From JAUWCW01 sp030609125 [NCBI: Candidatus Rokuibacteriota bacterium] (GTDB lineage Bacteria > JAUVQV01): DNA of 5,777 nucleotides. The stretch is from assembly GCA_030609125.1 (NCBI GenBank), contig JAUWCW010000142.1, positions 1-5,777 of the forward strand. The letters are read 5' to 3'. This document shows, piece by piece, positions 38-5,777 of the stretch. The notes beneath the pieces are model-generated. The model worked only from the letters and a program-made list of their open reading frames with translations, had not been told where the DNA came from and did no database searches. Positions within the stretch are counted from its first letter, which is position 1. Every line of letters starts with the position of its first letter. The position numbers and the translations under genes were made by a program.

Positions 38-715
38 TCACGTATGGACAAAGACACCAGAGACGAGCACGACCAAGCCCCCGAAGGCCGGCCGCTCCCT
101 GAGCAGGAGCCGGCGGCCTTCCAGGGCTTGCCTTTCGCCGGGGAGAACCCTCCCCAGCGCCGCGGCCATACGGTCGACGGCCTCACCGGCCAGCAGGGGG
201 TCGAGCCAGAAGTACGGGTTGTCGCCCTTCGGCGCGGAGGCCTCGTCCAGCCCGAGGGCGGAGGTGAAGATCTTCCGTTCCGTCTCCTCCGGCTTCGAGG
301 GAGCGATCAGTTCCATCCCCTCCGTGAGATCGACGACGGCGACGCCCTGGCCCGCCGCCTGCATCGCCAGCGTGTCGGCCCGCCCCTCCAGCCCGCTCCC
401 CACCTTGAAGTACAGGAGGCTCCCGGCGATCTCGCGGAGGGCGTCCCCGTCGGGACCGCCCTCACCCCGGGGAGCCGCGCCCGGAGGGAAGAGCGCCACA
501 ACCCGGACCGAATCTCCGACGAGCCGCTGCGCCAGGTCCGCTATGGGGGCGATGCTTGCGGCGACCCGGACCTCGCCGCGGGCGGGCGCGGCCGGCGCAC
601 AGAGCCAGAGGGAGAGGGCGAGAGGAAGGAGTGTCGCCCCGCCTCGTCCAAACGGCCCCGAATCAGGGAGGGAAAGCCGCGGCGGCAATCTTCGCCAGCC
701 CCTTTTCGATGTCAT
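38..715 (-). CDS. Short TroA/ZnuA-like metal ABC transporter substrate-binding protein, probably C-terminally truncated
   Basis: This 225-residue protein resembles the N-terminal lobe of periplasmic cluster A-I (TroA/ZnuA) binding proteins, which deliver zinc or manganese to an ABC importer. An Arg-containing N-terminus and a hydrophobic stretch (about 27-45, LLPLALSLWLCAPAAPA) look like a Sec signal, cleaved near APA/RGEV. The mature start VRVAASIAPIADLAQRLVG, the VVALFPPGAAP segment (73-82), LLYFKVGSGLE (100-110) and NPYFWLDP (166-173) are family landmarks. Two positions that are normally metal-binding His are Arg83 and Tyr168. Family members are usually about 300 residues. This one loses resemblance after about residue 208 and ends in an unrelated tail, so the C-lobe ligands are absent. 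Start: ATG at 715 lies inside the upstream kinase gene (53-nt overlap). A TTG at 688, preceded by AAAAGGGG, is an alternative. It may be a decayed gene, a frameshifted gene or a divergent binding protein. No permease or ATPase partner is visible. Confidence 0.62.
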   Translation of the reverse strand: MTSKRGWRRLPPRLSLPDSGPFGRGGATLLPLALSLWLCAPAAPARGEVRVAASIAPIADLAQRLVGDSVRVVALFPPGAAPRGEGGPDGDALREIAGSLLYFKVGSGLEGRADTLAMQAAGQGVAVVDLTEGMELIAPSKPEETERKIFTSALGLDEASAPKGDNPYFWLDPLLAGEAVDRMAAALGRVLPGERQALEGRRLLLRERPAFGGLVVLVSGVFVHT

Positions 716-2258
716 CGCTCGTGTCCACTCTCACCGTCGCCCGGCGGGGCGGCGTGTACACCTTCTTCATGGCACGGTAGATGCTCCAGTCCGCATCGGA
801 GAGTGTTCGCCCCGACCGGCCCCTCATCTCGAGACGCCGGCGGGCGATTCCGGCGGGGCAGATGCACTCCACCGTCACGTACCGGGCCCCTTTCCTGCGG
901 GCCGCTGCCGCGGCGAGCCTTCGGAAAGATCTTTGGGCGAAGGTGGCGTCGATGACGACGCTCCGCCCCCTGCGGAGGAGCCCCTCCGCCCGGCGGACAA
1001 CCTCCCCGTAGACTCTTTTCGTCCACTCCGCGGAGTATATCCCTTTCTGCCACCCCGCTCCGCCCCTGGTGGAGCCCGCCGCCGCGAGTTCCCTGCGCAC
1101 CCCGTCGGAGGTGATGCACGCCGCCCCCAGACGCTGCGCCCAGTCGCCGGCGAGAGTGCTCTTTCCCGTCCCGGGGAGCCCCCCGACGGCGAAAAGGCGC
1201 GGCTGTCCGTCTCTTCGCGCCAGGTCTCGGGCGAGGTGAAAGTACCGTGCGGCCCTGCGCCTGGAGGCCTTCTGCTGTGCCGGCGGAACGAGAGGGTCGG
1301 AGAAGCGGAAGCTCTCCACCTTCTCCCGCACCACGGCGCGGTAGCAGGCATAGAAGGAGAGGAGAAGCCGGATCTCCCAGTCACCGGTGAGCCGGATGTA
1401 CTCATCGATGAAGGCGCGGGCCAGGTGGGGGTGACGGTGGAAGAGAAGATCCATGTACAGGAAGGCGATCTCGGCGGCGACGTCGCAGTGGCGCAGGCGG
1501 GAGCTGAACTCCAGGCAGTCGTAGATGACGATCCCGTTGGTGACGCAGATGTGCTCGGCGTGCAGGTCGCCGTGACAGTCGCGGATCCTGCCGTCGCGGA
1601 CCCTTTTCTTCAGCAGGAAGAGACGGCTTTCCAGGAAGCGGCGGTTGTAGTCGTAGACGGCGCGGTAGTCCGACCGGCTCACGGTGCGGCCGATGTAGGG
1701 CTCCGTCTGGCGGAAGTTCTCCTCGAGGTTCCGCCGCAGCAGGCCGAGCCGCCGATTGGGAAGCGGGGCCTCCCGGGCCGCGGCGTGAAACTCCGCCACC
1801 TTGCGGGCGATCCTGCGGGTCTGGGCGAGGGTGGCCCGCCCCCGGGCCATGAGGGTGGAAAAGAGACGCTCCTCGGGGAGGCGCTTCATGACCACCGCGT
1901 ACTCGGCGACTGCACCGGGAGGCTCCAGGGAAAACTCATCGCCCCGCCGGTATATCCGGGCGGTCCCGAGATAGAGGTCGGGGGCGAGCCGGCGGTTGAG
2001 CTCCACCTCCCGCCTGCACCAGTAGGCCCTCTTGCGGAGGGTGGAGTAGTCGAGAAAGCCGAAATCGACGGGCTTCTTGACCTTGTAGACCAGCTCGCCG
2101 GCGAGAAATACGGAGGAGATGTGCGTCTGGGTGTGCTGGACACGGCGGGGGCGGTGGGGATAGAATCGGGGTGAAAGCATGGCTTCGACCAGGGAAGGAG
2201 ATGTCTGCCCGCCCGGTCTCCGGGACGGTTCCGCCGTGCCTGTCCTCGGGCCTGCCAT
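663..2258 (-). CDS. Bifunctional APH-like phosphotransferase / P-loop (AAA-type) kinase family protein
   Basis: A cytoplasmic two-domain protein of about 531 residues from the ATG at 2258. The N-half resembles the APH-like kinase group (COG2187 type). It contains VYKVKKPVDFGFLDYSTL (57-74), probably holding the nucleotide-contacting Lys, then the catalytic-loop motif HGDLHAEH (229-236) and IYDCLEF (245-251), whose Asp would coordinate Mg in this fold. The C-half is a zeta-toxin/gluconate-kinase-like P-loop domain (COG0645 type) with Walker A GGLPGTGKST (359-368), followed by SDGVRREL and VVIDATF (434-440). The fused arrangement and length are usual for this widespread family. Its substrate is not established, and the APH likeness should not be read as antibiotic resistance. 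Start choice: a GTG at 2294 would add 12 residues, and family similarity only begins around SLVEAMLSPRFYPH. None of the candidate starts has a Shine-Dalgarno, and a TACAAT box sits just upstream of the ATG. The gene overlaps the 5' end of the binding-protein gene, suggesting cotranscription. Confidence 0.9.
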   Translation of the reverse strand: MAGPRTGTAEPSRRPGGQTSPSLVEAMLSPRFYPHRPRRVQHTQTHISSVFLAGELVYKVKKPVDFGFLDYSTLRKRAYWCRREVELNRRLAPDLYLGTARIYRRGDEFSLEPPGAVAEYAVVMKRLPEERLFSTLMARGRATLAQTRRIARKVAEFHAAAREAPLPNRRLGLLRRNLEENFRQTEPYIGRTVSRSDYRAVYDYNRRFLESRLFLLKKRVRDGRIRDCHGDLHAEHICVTNGIVIYDCLEFSSRLRHCDVAAEIAFLYMDLLFHRHPHLARAFIDEYIRLTGDWEIRLLLSFYACYRAVVREKVESFRFSDPLVPPAQQKASRRRAARYFHLARDLARRDGQPRLFAVGGLPGTGKSTLAGDWAQRLGAACITSDGVRRELAAAGSTRGGAGWQKGIYSAEWTKRVYGEVVRRAEGLLRRGRSVVIDATFAQRSFRRLAAAAARRKGARYVTVECICPAGIARRRLEMRGRSGRTLSDADWSIYRAMKKVYTPPRRATVRVDTSDDIEKGLAKIAAAAFPP

Positions 2259-2265
2259 GGGAGGT

Positions 2266-2271
2266 ATTGTA
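2266..2271 (-). promoter_or_regulatory. Possible -10 element (TACAAT) for the minus-strand kinase gene
   Basis: Read on the minus strand, TACAAT matches the sigma-70 -10 consensus at five of six positions. It lies 7 nt upstream of the ATG at 2258, so transcription would begin at or next to that start codon and the message would be leaderless. This fits the absence of a Shine-Dalgarno there. No convincing -35 is found at 16-18 bp spacing (GTGCCG is the best in register), so the assignment is weak. If the GTG at 2294 is the real start, this box lies inside the gene. Confidence 0.25.
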
Positions 2272-2441
2272 CCGTATCTTCCCGGGGCCGGCACGGGGAT
2301 TACGGTTCGGCCCGCGATTCCGTCACGTCACTCTTCCCTGTGCAATAAATGCAGAACCCGCATGAAGGTATGACTTTTTTTCACAGTGGGCCGGCCGTCC
2401 CCGGAAAGAGAGGTTTTCATGGTCAACATAAAATTCTTTAA

Positions 2442-2497: not shown

Positions 2498-2547
2498 TTT
2501 ATGATTGAGTGCACAGCCCGTGTGAGTGGGCAGAGGAGAGCAAAGGG

Positions 2548-3078
2548 ATGGTTATGAAGCAGAGTGGCAGGAAGGAAGAAGGATTCACTCTCGTTGAAAT
2601 CTGCATAGCCCTGGCGATCGCCGCCATCGTCGCCATGCTCGCCATCCCCTCCATGAGGGGGATGCTTCCCCGGCTCCGCCTTAACAACGACATTGCCACG
2701 CTTACCAACGAAATAGCCCTCGCCCGGGCGCGATCCATCGCCAAGAACAACGAGCTCCGCATCATCTTCAGCACCGCCGGCGACAGCTACACCCTCCGCA
2801 ACGAGACCGACGGCGTCAGCTTCGCCACCAACACCCTCTCGGGGGACATCGACCTCTACCAGGTCGATGACCTGGGACCGGCAAACACCCTCGCAATAAG
2901 GGCCGTGGGGAGCGTGGGGTGGGTCGACAGCGGCAGCTACAAGGACCTGGGTCTCGGGGTGGTGCCGGCCATGTCCCTGATGACCTCCGACGGGGCGTAT
3001 CGCAAGAGGGTCCGCGTCGAAGGGACGGGAAGGATGTACGTCGAGCGCTGGAACGGAAGCGGCTGGGTGGAGGAATAG
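2548..3078 (+). CDS. GspH/FimT family minor pseudopilin
   Basis: A 176-residue prepilin and probable minor subunit of a type IV pilus, held in the inner membrane before assembly. It has a 12-residue leader ending in Gly12, then FTLVE with Glu at +5 (residue 17), the site for PilD-type cleavage and N-methylation. The hydrophobic helix runs from about 13 to 36. The region NNDIATLTNEIALARARSIA (46-65) is the amphipathic helix typical of GspH/FimT proteins. A beta-rich globular part follows, ending with the family-like VEGTGRMYVERWNGSGW (157-173). Start choice: GAGGAG (2533-2538) is 9 nt before the ATG at 2548. A second ATG at 2554 is possible, and an upstream GTG at 2509 would sit at the predicted transcription start, so it is disfavoured. 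FimT and FimU cannot be separated by sequence alone. It is the first gene of the operon, 3 nt before the PilV-like gene. Confidence 0.88.
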   Translation: MVMKQSGRKEEGFTLVEICIALAIAAIVAMLAIPSMRGMLPRLRLNNDIATLTNEIALARARSIAKNNELRIIFSTAGDSYTLRNETDGVSFATNTLSGDIDLYQVDDLGPANTLAIRAVGSVGWVDSGSYKDLGLGVVPAMSLMTSDGAYRKRVRVEGTGRMYVERWNGSGWVEE

Positions 3079-3081
3079 GAG

Positions 3082-3510
3082 ATGAAACAGGCAGGTTTCA
3101 CCCTCATCGAGGTCATGATCTCCATGTTCATCATGCTTTTTATCGTCCAGGGCCTGGCCATGGTTTCGCTCTACGCCCAGCGATCGAGCATCTACGCCCG
3201 GCGCCTGACATCGGCCAACATGCTTGCCGAGAAGGAGCTGGAGCGCTGCCGCAACGTCGACTATGACAACCTGGCCACCCTCGATGGCGATGAAAGCTGT
3301 TTCGACGGCTTCATGACGCCCGTCGCCAACTGCGCCGGGAGCGATGCCGTCTTCACCCGGACGACGACGGTGACGGCGGACACGCCGCTCGCGAACACCT
3401 CGCAGATCGACGTCTCGGTGACGTGGGACGAAGGGCTCGCCTGGAACGCGCGCCTCGCCGCCGACGGCAGCTACGAGGCCAAAGTGGTGAGTTACATTTC
3501 GAGGTACTGA
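3082..3510 (+). CDS. pilV: PilV-like type IV pilus minor pilin
   Basis: A 142-residue prepilin. The leader is only five residues (MKQAG), followed by FTLIEVMIS with Glu at +5 (residue 10), then a hydrophobic helix to about residue 30. The segment RRLTSANMLAEKELERCRNV (40-59) and the later FTRTTTVTADTPLANTSQID (91-110) with VSVTW resemble the PilV family, whose members are of similar size. PilV is a minor pilin that works with FimT/FimU, PilW, PilX and PilE to prime pilus assembly. Cys73 and Cys84 could form a loop disulfide; Cys56 is extra. GGAGG (3069-3073), inside the end of the preceding gene, lies 8 nt before the ATG, indicating translational coupling. The PilW-like gene follows after 26 nt. 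Confidence 0.82.
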   Translation: MKQAGFTLIEVMISMFIMLFIVQGLAMVSLYAQRSSIYARRLTSANMLAEKELERCRNVDYDNLATLDGDESCFDGFMTPVANCAGSDAVFTRTTTVTADTPLANTSQIDVSVTWDEGLAWNARLAADGSYEAKVVSYISRY

Positions 3511-3521
3511 GGATGAAACGG

Positions 3522-3529
3522 GGAGGAGG
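3522..3529 (+). promoter_or_regulatory. Strong Shine-Dalgarno fixing the PilW-like start
   Basis: GGAGGAGG lies 7 nt before the ATG at 3537. An in-frame ATG at 3513 would place this sequence inside the coding region and add eight residues (MKRGGGTA) to the leader. The downstream start is therefore preferred. Confidence 0.75.
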
Positions 3530-3536
3530 CACTGCA

Positions 3537-5777
3537 ATGAGAGTCAGGGAGAGAATGAGAAAAATCCTTCGCGCCGACAGTGCGGCGGGCTTTTCGATGA
3601 CGGAGCTCATCATTGCCCTCGCCATCTCCGTCATTGCCGCCGTGGGCATCTACAGCGTCTATATTACACAGACGAAGCAGTCCACCTCCCAGCGGCTCTA
3701 CAACGACCTGCAGAACAACCTGCGCTACGCCATGGACTACATGAAGAACGAGCTTTACCTGGCCGGCTTCAAGGCCGTCGACGCCGCCGAGCCGATCAGC
3801 ACGGCGACGGCGAACACCATCACCTTCGAGTACTGGGACGACAACTCCAGCGCCGCTCCTCCCTACGACCGGCACATCCAGGTCACCTACATCCTCGCCG
3901 GCAACGAGCTTCGGCGCACCTTCCTGCAGTACAACACCTCGACGGCGGCGCCGAACCCGCGGTACGATCCCTCGACCACCGTTACCCAGGTCCTGGCCAA
4001 GAACGTCGACGCCCTCGCCTTCTCCTACCGCCAATCGGACGACCAGCCCTTCACGGTCGGTACCGACGATCCGGAAGACATCCGGACCATCCGGATCACC
4101 CTCGCCGGGCGCTCCTCCCGGCCCGACCCCATCCTGAAGGACCCTGTCTCCGGCGGGGACTACTACCGCAAGCTCACCCTCACGGGCGAGATCAAGTCGA
4201 GAAACCTGGCCATCGCCTCCAACCCCTTCGACTCCACGGCCCCCGGAACGCCGACGGGCCTCAACGTCTGGGACCCGCAGGAGTGCGGACGGCTGCAACT
4301 CGAGTGGGACGCCCGCACCGAGAAAGACCTGGCGGGCTACACCATCTACTACGGCCTCTCGGCGGGGAATTACTCGGGCCGGAAGCGGATCAGCCGCTCC
4401 CCCGGAACGGCGGGCGCCAAGGAGTACCTCACCCTCACGGGCCTTCAGTCCTACAACGCCATGTACTACGTTGCCATCAGCTCCTACGACCGCTCTAACA
4501 ACGTCAGCGCCATCTCCACCCCGGACCTCTACGGCAACCCCAGCCCCGACGGGACCACCGCCGCCGACGGGCCGGACTCGACGGTCAACCCCGTCATCCC
4601 GGGGCCCCCGGCGGATCTCGCCGCCGCCTACCCCGTGGACGATCAGGTGCAGCTCTCCTGGACCCCCTCGGTGACGCCGGGGGTGGTGGGCTACCGTCTC
4701 TTCCGGGCAGAAGAATCCGATTTCAGCGACGAGGTGATAATCGCCAACGAGATAGAGCTTCCGGCCGAAAGCACGGGCTATCTGGACACTGACGGCTCCC
4801 TCGTCGGCTGCGCGTACTACTTCTACCGGATCGCCTCGATCCACTGCGACGCGGCGGAGTTCAACGACGGCAACTACACCGACAGCGACTACGCCCTCAT
4901 CAGCGCGTCTCCCACGGACACGGTGCCGCCGTCGACACCCAACCTCATCGCCCGCCCCGGCTACCGGCGGATCATCCTTAACCTGGAGAACCCCGTCAGG
5001 GGCGACGAGCCGGACTTCGACTACACCGCGGTCTACTTCAGCACCGCGGGCTACCCCACCGTCAGTGAGGGCGTTGTCTCGAACGGGGCCCTTATTCCCG
5101 ACTATAGCGGCTACATAAGCGACGACGGCAGCATCCCCCCCATCAACTTCGACAGCGAGAGTCAGGTGACTCCGGCGGAGCCGGAGCTTCAGCCCGACAC
5201 GAAGTACTACTTTCTCGCCGTCGCGTCCGACCAGTGCGGCAACCACACCGACGCGACCTCCGAGTCTCTCGCGGAAGGGCAGCAGTGCGGCGACTGCGAC
5301 GCAGCGGAGATCTGCTACGAGGCGCCGCCGCCCCCGACGGGCATCACCAAGGCGGGGTGCGGCACCAGCATCGCCCTGAACTGGGATGCCATCGACCAGA
5401 TCGACTACCGCGACCTCGCCGGCTTCCGGGTTTTGCGCCGGGAGGGCTACGACTGGACCCTGAATCCCGCGTCGGAGGTGGAGCTCACGGGAGGGGAGGC
5501 GACGTGGTTCACGAACTGGACGGACACCACCACCTCGGCGAGCAACCCCCTGGAGATGGGCAAGCGGTACTCCTACAAGATCTGCTCCACCGACTGCTAC
5601 TACGAGCAGCACAGCGGGAAGTCGGCGGGGGACTGGCCCGATCCCGGGAACAACCCGGACGACAACATCGACTGCACCATCGTGAACGACATCTACCCGG
5701 GGAAATTCTACCTCGACGACCAGAGGGACGTGCCCGTGACGGGCGATCTGCTCTCCGTCCCGCCGAACTTCCGCCAC
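3537..5777 (+). CDS. pilW: PilW-like minor pilin with C-terminal tandem fibronectin type III-like domains (partial, runs off right edge)
   Basis: At least 747 residues with no stop before the window end. The leader is 18 residues, basic, and ends in Gly18; FSMTE follows with Glu at +5 (residue 23), then a hydrophobic helix (about 24-44). The sequence LYNDLQNNLRYAMDYMKNEL (54-73) followed by AGF is the amphipathic segment seen in PilW pilins, and the pilin globular part extends to about residue 225. Ordinary PilW proteins are roughly 200-350 residues. Here four FN3-like modules follow (about 236-327, 355-457, 465-575, 598-695), then a further segment with DNIDCTIVNDIYPGKFYLDD that may begin another domain. 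Eleven cysteines lie beyond the pilin part. The predicted location is the periplasm or outside, at the pilus tip or base, where the modules could present a binding surface; this is inference. It follows the PilV-like gene in the same operon. The pilin assignment is firm; the FN3 assignment rests on strand patterns read by eye. Confidence 0.85.
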   Translation, partial: MRVRERMRKILRADSAAGFSMTELIIALAISVIAAVGIYSVYITQTKQSTSQRLYNDLQNNLRYAMDYMKNELYLAGFKAVDAAEPISTATANTITFEYWDDNSSAAPPYDRHIQVTYILAGNELRRTFLQYNTSTAAPNPRYDPSTTVTQVLAKNVDALAFSYRQSDDQPFTVGTDDPEDIRTIRITLAGRSSRPDPILKDPVSGGDYYRKLTLTGEIKSRNLAIASNPFDSTAPGTPTGLNVWDPQECGRLQLEWDARTEKDLAGYTIYYGLSAGNYSGRKRISRSPGTAGAKEYLTLTGLQSYNAMYYVAISSYDRSNNVSAISTPDLYGNPSPDGTTAADGPDSTVNPVIPGPPADLAAAYPVDDQVQLSWTPSVTPGVVGYRLFRAEESDFSDEVIIANEIELPAESTGYLDTDGSLVGCAYYFYRIASIHCDAAEFNDGNYTDSDYALISASPTDTVPPSTPNLIARPGYRRIILNLENPVRGDEPDFDYTAVYFSTAGYPTVSEGVVSNGALIPDYSGYISDDGSIPPINFDSESQVTPAEPELQPDTKYYFLAVASDQCGNHTDATSESLAEGQQCGDCDAAEICYEAPPPPTGITKAGCGTSIALNWDAIDQIDYRDLAGFRVLRREGYDWTLNPASEVELTGGEATWFTNWTDTTTSASNPLEMGKRYSYKICSTDCYYEQHSGKSAGDWPDPGNNPDDNIDCTIVNDIYPGKFYLDDQRDVPVTGDLLSVPPNFRH
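4242..5621 (+). repeat. Four diverged tandem FN3-like modules within the PilW-like protein
   Basis: Each module starts with a Pro-rich boundary (APGTPTGL, IPGPPADL, VPPSTPNL, PPPPTGIT). The B-strand pattern follows: LQLEWDA, VQLSWTP, IILNLEN, IALNWDA. The C-strand pattern is LAGYTIYYG, VVGYRLFRA, FDYTAVYFS, LAGFRVLRR. The F-strand is Tyr-rich: YYVAISSYD, YFYRIASIH, YYFLAVASD, YSYKICSTD. Approximate spans are 4242-4517, 4599-4907, 4929-5261 and 5328-5621. The copies are too diverged to be recent DNA duplications. Modules 1 and 2 are joined by a Pro/Gly/Asp-rich linker (about residues 328-354). Module 3 is the longest and carries an insertion between its C and F strands. Confidence 0.7.

Follow-up and report, generated by a model that had tools for sequence, protein, structure and literature searches.

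The last gene of the DNA stretch analysed here raises the question of whether a minor pilin can itself carry, as a C-terminal arm, the part that PilY1 usually plays at the tip of a pilus. The window, by which the whole 5,777-base stretch is meant, is the entire contig C141 of the genome studied (G000), a draft assembly of 2.32 Mb in 376 contigs with 92% completeness, from a phylum represented by only two genomes in the collection compared.

The pilin part and its arm

From ATG 3537 to position 5777 the gene forms one frame of 747 codons with zero stops and, since the window is the whole contig and the frame is still open at its end, the gene is truncated by the contig end (Table 1). The first-pass annotation had described a single uninterrupted frame of more than 740 residues, a prepilin N-terminus, four FN3-like modules after approximately residue 230 and an extension several times the size of a pilin, and all of these are upheld, the length of the frame being a lower bound. 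The N-terminus contains the motif AAG18/F19SMTE23 followed by LIIALAISVIAAVGIYSVY, in which a leader ending in G, F1, E5 and a hydrophobic helix are all present, and prepilin peptidase would be predicted to cleave between G18 and F19, with Glu at +5. TIGR02532 passes its cut-off on the gene product (18.9 bits against 16.3), Pfam N_methyl reaches 24.6 bits in the genome search, above its cut-off of 21.2, but falls short of it in the protein scan (19.3 bits), and both G18 and E23 are invariant in the alignment of three homologues from G000, G001 and G058. The pilin head comprises residues 76-229. A PDB search with the pilin profile returned a non-pilin chain as its best match (E 0.013), with pilins appearing from E 0.028. 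The pilin ends at approximately residue 229 and the arm runs from there to the contig end.

Table 1. Coordinates of features in the window (positions on the 5,777-base contig C141).
Feature	Position	Strand	Evidence or remark
ZnuA-like protein	38..715	-	Family model matched over first half only
543-aa protein, APH-type phosphotransferase + AAA_33 kinase	663..2294	-	Ordinary fusion
FimT/GspH-like minor pilin (H position)	2509..3078	+	N_methyl 25.3 bits, above cut-off
PilV-like minor pilin (I position)	3082..3510	+	N_methyl 30.1 bits, above cut-off
Ribosome-binding site GGGAGGAGG	3521..3529	+	Sequence reading; 7 bases ahead of ATG 3537; good site
PilW-like (J-position) modular minor pilin	3537..5777	+	First 747 residues; 3′ part cut off by the contig end
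Class III leader peptide, residues 1-18, ending G18	3537..3590	+	Motif
Mature pilin part, residues 19-229: F1, E5, hydrophobic helix, head	3591..4223	+	
FN3 module 1 (residues 230-345)	4224..4571	+	Pfam 29 bits; hhalign 99.1%; fold matches
FN3 module 2 (residues 346-461)	4572..4919	+	hhalign 96.7%
FN3 module 3 (residues 462-583)	4920..5285	+	hhalign 95.5%, query residues 460-583
FN3 module 4 (residues 594-712)	5316..5672	+	hhalign 96.1%
Start of post-FN3 region, contig-truncated	5673..5777	+	Alignment to same G001 region

Only module 1 passes the Pfam FN3 model PF00041 (cut-off 25), modules 2-4 being unmatched, and the assignment of FN3, which we take to be IPR003961, to all four modules comes from profile comparison, in which hhalign was run with module profiles from the three homologues against 24 FN3 domains of six other long pilins. 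In control comparisons the pilin part reached 0.18% against FN3, and modules 1-4 reached at most 0.27% against SdrD_B and Calx-beta. A model of module 1, built on the window's own four modules, has seven strands and a mean pLDDT of only 65.7; with that confidence, it matches FN3 structures in Foldseek (E 2.1e-4) and superposes on an FN3 structure with a VIA Z of 11.4 and an rmsd of 2.4 over 89 residues. A fold predicted for the full 747 residues from the sequence alone (mean pLDDT 31.8) was set aside, and a PDB sequence search with the whole protein gave a best E of 0.11, to FN3 proteins. The idea that the four FN3 modules were inherited together is unsupported, because their best scores scatter: for modules 1-3 the top-scoring counterpart in other lineages is FN3 position 4, for module 4 it is position 2, and there is no one-to-one match to positions elsewhere. 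The later arm domains X5 and X6 of the G001 and G058 proteins gave no match to the FN3 or Big_7 reference, and the last module on contig C90 (see below) is weakly FN3-like (19.6 bits against the cut-off of 25; hhalign 28.6%). The PilY1 beta-propeller family PF05567 has no match within the 747 residues seen. Residues 232-279 of the query were also matched by an FN3-bearing protein of a Gemmatimonadetes MAG (L039), which was rejected as a homologous pilin, being a 2,034-residue frame whose start has no visible pilin motif; secreted FN3 proteins of this type have similar FN3 arrays but, in the case of L039, lack the pilin motif seen in the window protein.

The two upstream pilin genes score below the cut-offs of their specific family models, the first reaching 31.2 bits against the GspH model (cut-off 80) and the second 27.2 bits against TIGR02523 PilV (cut-off 52.2); the real start of the former is probably ATG 2548 or ATG 2554. 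The ZnuA-like protein stops near the contig start and is perhaps truncated, and an Rfam scan of the window gave zero matches.

Long PilW-like pilins, PilY1 and PilX across genomes

Of the 386 genomes sampled, 243 contain a match (E 0.001) to a pilin-part profile made from the three homologues and, among the matches listed, many frames were 850-1,930 residues long. Twenty loci with long PilW-like pilins were read from start to stop and encode proteins of 933-1,922 aa, two of them truncated by contig ends. An adhesin-type Pfam domain lies above cut-off in 14 of the 20, namely FN3 in six, Big_7/Big_13 in five (two also with FN3), Calx-beta in one and SdrD_B and/or FG-GAP in four, with a prepilin motif or sub-threshold matches only in the remaining six. 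An FG-GAP-repeat region, likely a beta-propeller, is fused to PilW in G268, G195 and G136 and to PilX in G106. Within the phylum of G136, four of eight genomes matched at E 1e-8 (frames of 999, 996, 901 and 645 aa, the last with an internal stop), and in that of G100 the PilW frames measure 950-1137 aa in five of seven genomes (one frame containing a stop) and 338 and 222 aa in the other two. Many lineages thus possess long PilW-like pilins, whose adhesin-type domains vary, and, with modular pilins described in 2021, the architecture is less unusual than the first-pass annotation had implied.

PF05567 was found in 57 of the 386 sampled genomes, which serve as the positive control because the 14 named control genomes have none, and it was undetected in profile searches of G000, G001 and G058. 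For comparison with PilW length, the 142 listed rows that start in the pilin N-terminus were used, from 116 genomes; eight rows starting at profile position 145 or beyond were left out, a genome without a listed match has no place in the sample, and a long PilW was defined as a frame of at least 700. Among the matches listed, PilY1 is found in 0 of 24 long-PilW genomes versus 23 of 92 with short PilW (Fisher p = 0.0034). Restricted to PilY1 above the family cut-off, the listed matches give 0/24 versus 19/92 (p = 0.012) and, counted once per family but with deeper phylogeny uncorrected, 0/19 versus 20/73 (p = 0.0099). The suggestion that the extension acts in PilY1's usual role gains support from this distribution and from the non-detection of PF05567 in G000. 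It is as non-detection that PilY1 absence must be read throughout, since PF05567 misses divergent PilY1: in G176, scored PilY1-negative, an 1803-aa protein beside PilX, at 21.3 bits to PF05567 (cut-off 28.1), turned out to be a divergent PilY1.

The size of PilX follows the same division. A length-blind search with a 65-residue N-terminal profile, keeping the best match per locus, located a PilX-like neighbour at 19 of 24 long-PilW loci (those of C90, G001, G058 and G104 among them), where it measures 328-777 aa, versus 104-233 aa at 19 of 21 PilY1 loci, with zero overlap; one PilY1 locus (G086) has an additional PilX-like frame of 566 aa. Where PilW is short and PilY1 undetected, a PilX-like gene was found at 20 of 23 loci, and 18 of these 20 exceed 233 aa, so that large PilX tracks missing PilY1 more than long PilW. 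The two exceptions of 233 aa or less are G176, with its divergent PilY1, and G242, on a 6.4-kb contig. This short-PilW set may be partly T2SS, since some of its members are GspK-like (G115 and G252), having K-type pilins of 1441 aa (L151, 5935-10257, plus strand) and 1484 aa (L155, 770-5221, minus strand), respectively, that carry helix-hairpin-helix and lamin-tail domains.

Several single loci may be recorded alongside these counts. The PilX-like protein of G106 (L081, 1179-3305, minus strand; 709 aa) has an FG-GAP match (PF13517, 29.2 bits, cut-off 26.9) and adjoins a Calx-beta-bearing PilW. In G078 and G220, proteins of 1,160 and 1,168 aa, respectively, with Big_5 and LTD domains are encoded close to the long PilW. 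Two genomes share the same family and genus label: L116 (G241) encodes a PilY1 frame of 2483 aa with a PilW of 197 aa and a PilX of 182 aa, and L115 (G104) a PilW of 851 aa and a PilX-like protein of 463-508 aa, with PilY1 undetected.

Proposed role at the pilus tip

The gene product is probably a J-position modular minor pilin whose arm, an adhesin or a spacer, sits at a tip free of PilY1. As proposed here, it would belong, as J subunit, to a tip complex of FimT, PilV, PilW and PilX, and would have acquired FN3 modules and a further beta-rich thread (together approximately 1,200 residues) as a grafted arm. Once cut by prepilin peptidase, the pilin would join its PilV-like and PilX-like partners and prime the pilus, passing the secretin first and leaving the arm exposed at the tip; the cleavage, tip location, surface exposure and adhesive function of the arm are all predictions from the gene and its relatives. 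The arm may be an adhesin, or a spacer that holds out a binding domain near the C-terminus and, together with the enlarged PilX, could take over the task of PilY1; with PilY1 gone, the PilX head and the PilW arm would lie outermost at the tip. The first-pass annotation had conjectured attachment to a surface, a polymer or a partner cell. An FN3 module is about 3-4 nm long, and the arm might act as the hook of a retractile pilus, reaching a few tens of nm.

Several precedents bear on these steps. Experiments show that minor pilins and PilY1 form a tip complex (PMC7541494), for which the modelled order in M. xanthus is PilA, FimU, PilW, PilV, PilX, PilY1 (PMC13190605), and that ligands are bound by the modules grafted on minor pilins of S. 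sanguinis (PMC8179133, PMC9934059). Against the model, PilW3 of M. xanthus fused to sfGFP enters the machine and then jams it (PMC7541494), which means that a long tail must be narrow to pass the pore; FN3 beads would presumably be narrow enough.

An unlikely alternative, although the best placed of those considered, is that the protein is a modular minor pilin of shaft or tip whose arm is a spacer only, the tip being capped by an undetected PilY1 or another adhesin. FN3 arrays are often plain spacers, which counts against an adhesive arm, and false negatives of PF05567 do occur, as in G176. G238, whose long PilW bears FN3 domains, encodes close to this cluster a separate 491-aa FG-GAP protein (L163, 5774-7246, plus strand) that is a possible small PilY1 stand-in, and in an assembly of 376 contigs at 92% completeness a PilY1 gene may simply be missing. 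However, when the 24 long-PilW genomes were searched with PF05567 at a permissive E of 10, no match exceeded the cut-off and the weak matches in seven of them all lay off the contig of the listed PilW, whereas 20 of the 23 PilY1-positive genomes encode PilY1 on the PilW contig, at a distance of 2.6-7.5 kb; moreover, PilX is enlarged as well where PilY1 is absent.

The preferred reading, a J-position pilin with its own arm, has close parallels among known proteins. The survey of modular pilins by Raynaud (2021) covered more than 1,200 proteins in 264 architectures, IPR003961 being one of the additional domains in the 15 most frequent, and noted that PilY1 and modular pilins have modules in common (PMC8179133). 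The modular pilins PilB and PilC of S. sanguinis similarly have C-terminal domains that are not pilus-specific and are thought to be tip-located (PMC8179133); by comparison, the present protein is the J subunit of an H-I-J-K set in a genome with PilT, and its arm is far longer (approximately 1,450 aa in total). PilY1/PilC is likewise large, modular and thought to be displayed at the tip by FimU/PilV/PilW/PilX (PMC7541494, PMC13190605), but is a non-pilin with a C-terminal beta-propeller (PF05567), while the window protein is a pilin with no such domain in the part seen. Tad minor pilins of the TadG/KilN type also are large, with a C-terminal modular domain that customises the tip (PMC12075869), but belong to another filament class (T4cP) and are other pilin subunits. 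The available part of PMC8179133 draws the parallel between modular pilins and PilY1 and contains nothing on mutual exclusion or an enlarged PilX, and neither the exclusion of long J subunits and PilY1 nor an enlarged PilX without PilY1 is mentioned in the text available from PMC8179133, PMC10191384, PMC9934059, PMC13190605, PMC12075869 and PMC7541494. A literature text search for PilW with FN3 found no paper, and further searches found no title stating PilY1/long-PilW exclusion or PilX enlargement, in a coverage that excludes most subscription journals. Modular FN3 pilins are thus already known; the pattern of long PilW and large PilX without PilY1 looks new.

A broader possibility, to which we give slightly less than even credence, is that a second widespread class of tip complex exists without PilY1, in which enlarged J and K pilins carry the adhesive domains, the window gene with its FN3 arm being a member, and which is an alternative to PilY1 repeatedly exchanged in evolution. 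If so, the minor pilins of many bacteria lacking PilY1 would both prime the pilus and supply the adhesins of its tip, helping to explain pilus attachment where the standard tip adhesin is missing; a long PilW and large PilX would then be expected in sequences wherever PilY1 is absent, and this candidate lineage would possess a grappling pilus with a long tip arm.

Family assignment, homologues and the missing 3′ end

The genes are ordered H-I-J-K (FimT/GspH, PilV, PilW-like, PilX-like) in G000, G001 and G058, the J position being defined by the FimT/GspH-like and PilV-like genes just upstream and a PilX-like gene that follows directly in G001 and G058 and, for G000, beyond the contig gap on C90. 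Pfam PilW models gave no match to the gene product at E 1, and the curated models fall far under their cut-offs (PRK10557, 24.7 bits against 120; GspJ, 15.6 against 64.85), so that PilW is a positional name. Of the earlier identification as PilW, what stands is operon position and weak similarity, on which the name rests; the curated families do not bear it out. The PilX-like proteins of the three genomes have a hydrophobic start without Glu at +5. A K subunit usually lacks this residue. A PDB search with the PilX-like profile gave nothing at E 1.

The weak curated-model matches are common to T4P and T2SS, and the gene could in principle encode the T2SS pseudopilin GspJ, with an arm for cargo recognition rather than adhesion, all the more as G000 has a GspE above cut-off (670 bits against 630) on C246 with pilins on the same contig. 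Those GspE-linked pilins, however, sit at another locus, the partners of the present gene are PilV-like and PilX-like rather than GspI/GspK-like by best model (below cut-off in G000), and PilT-family ATPases above their cut-off of 319.1 (495.4 bits on C347, 472.5 on C349 and 443.0 on C121) show that a retractile pilus is present. A T2SS pseudopilin is thought less likely than a pilus J subunit, and indeed improbable. A second prepilin cluster of G000 is found on C250 (L012), with N_methyl frames of 187, 150 and 322 aa and a PilX-like match.

The same architecture, with the same order of parts, is encoded in G001 (42% identity, 1604 aa) and also occurs in G058 (34% identity, 1005-1017 aa depending on the start), in both with a PilX-like neighbour and PilY1 undetected. 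Relative to G001, modules 1-4 are 45, 43, 47 and 34% identical and the helix and head 38-42%; arm and pilin are conserved to a similar degree. That a frameshift or assembly error has joined a short PilW to an unrelated FN3 gene is scarcely credible, even for a draft genome in which the window is a whole contig ending within the gene, since the frame has no internal stop and two distant genomes of other families encode the same uninterrupted fusion with full-length similarity, and the first-pass claim of a single real gene holds.

The 3′ end of the gene very probably lies on contig C90, where an open-ended frame of 305 residues (C90:2-919) matches the C-terminus of the G001 protein (blastp 28.9% over 298 columns, 75.9 bits) and is directly followed by the PilX-like gene of G000, starting at C90:900, just as a PilX-like gene is next in G001. 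C141 and C90 share no overlap, and a whole-genome search of G000 (E 0.01) that had the second half of the G001 protein as its query missed C90. Judging from the alignment with G001, about 410 residues would still be unseen, giving a predicted full protein of about 1,450 aa. Just past the PilX-like gene on C90 (L047, 2787-3908, plus strand) are multihaem cytochrome genes with doubled CXXCH motifs, in a region matching TIGR01905 with 106.6 bits, and a CXXCH-rich frame occupies the same place in G001 on the opposite strand (L037, 12471-14639, minus strand).
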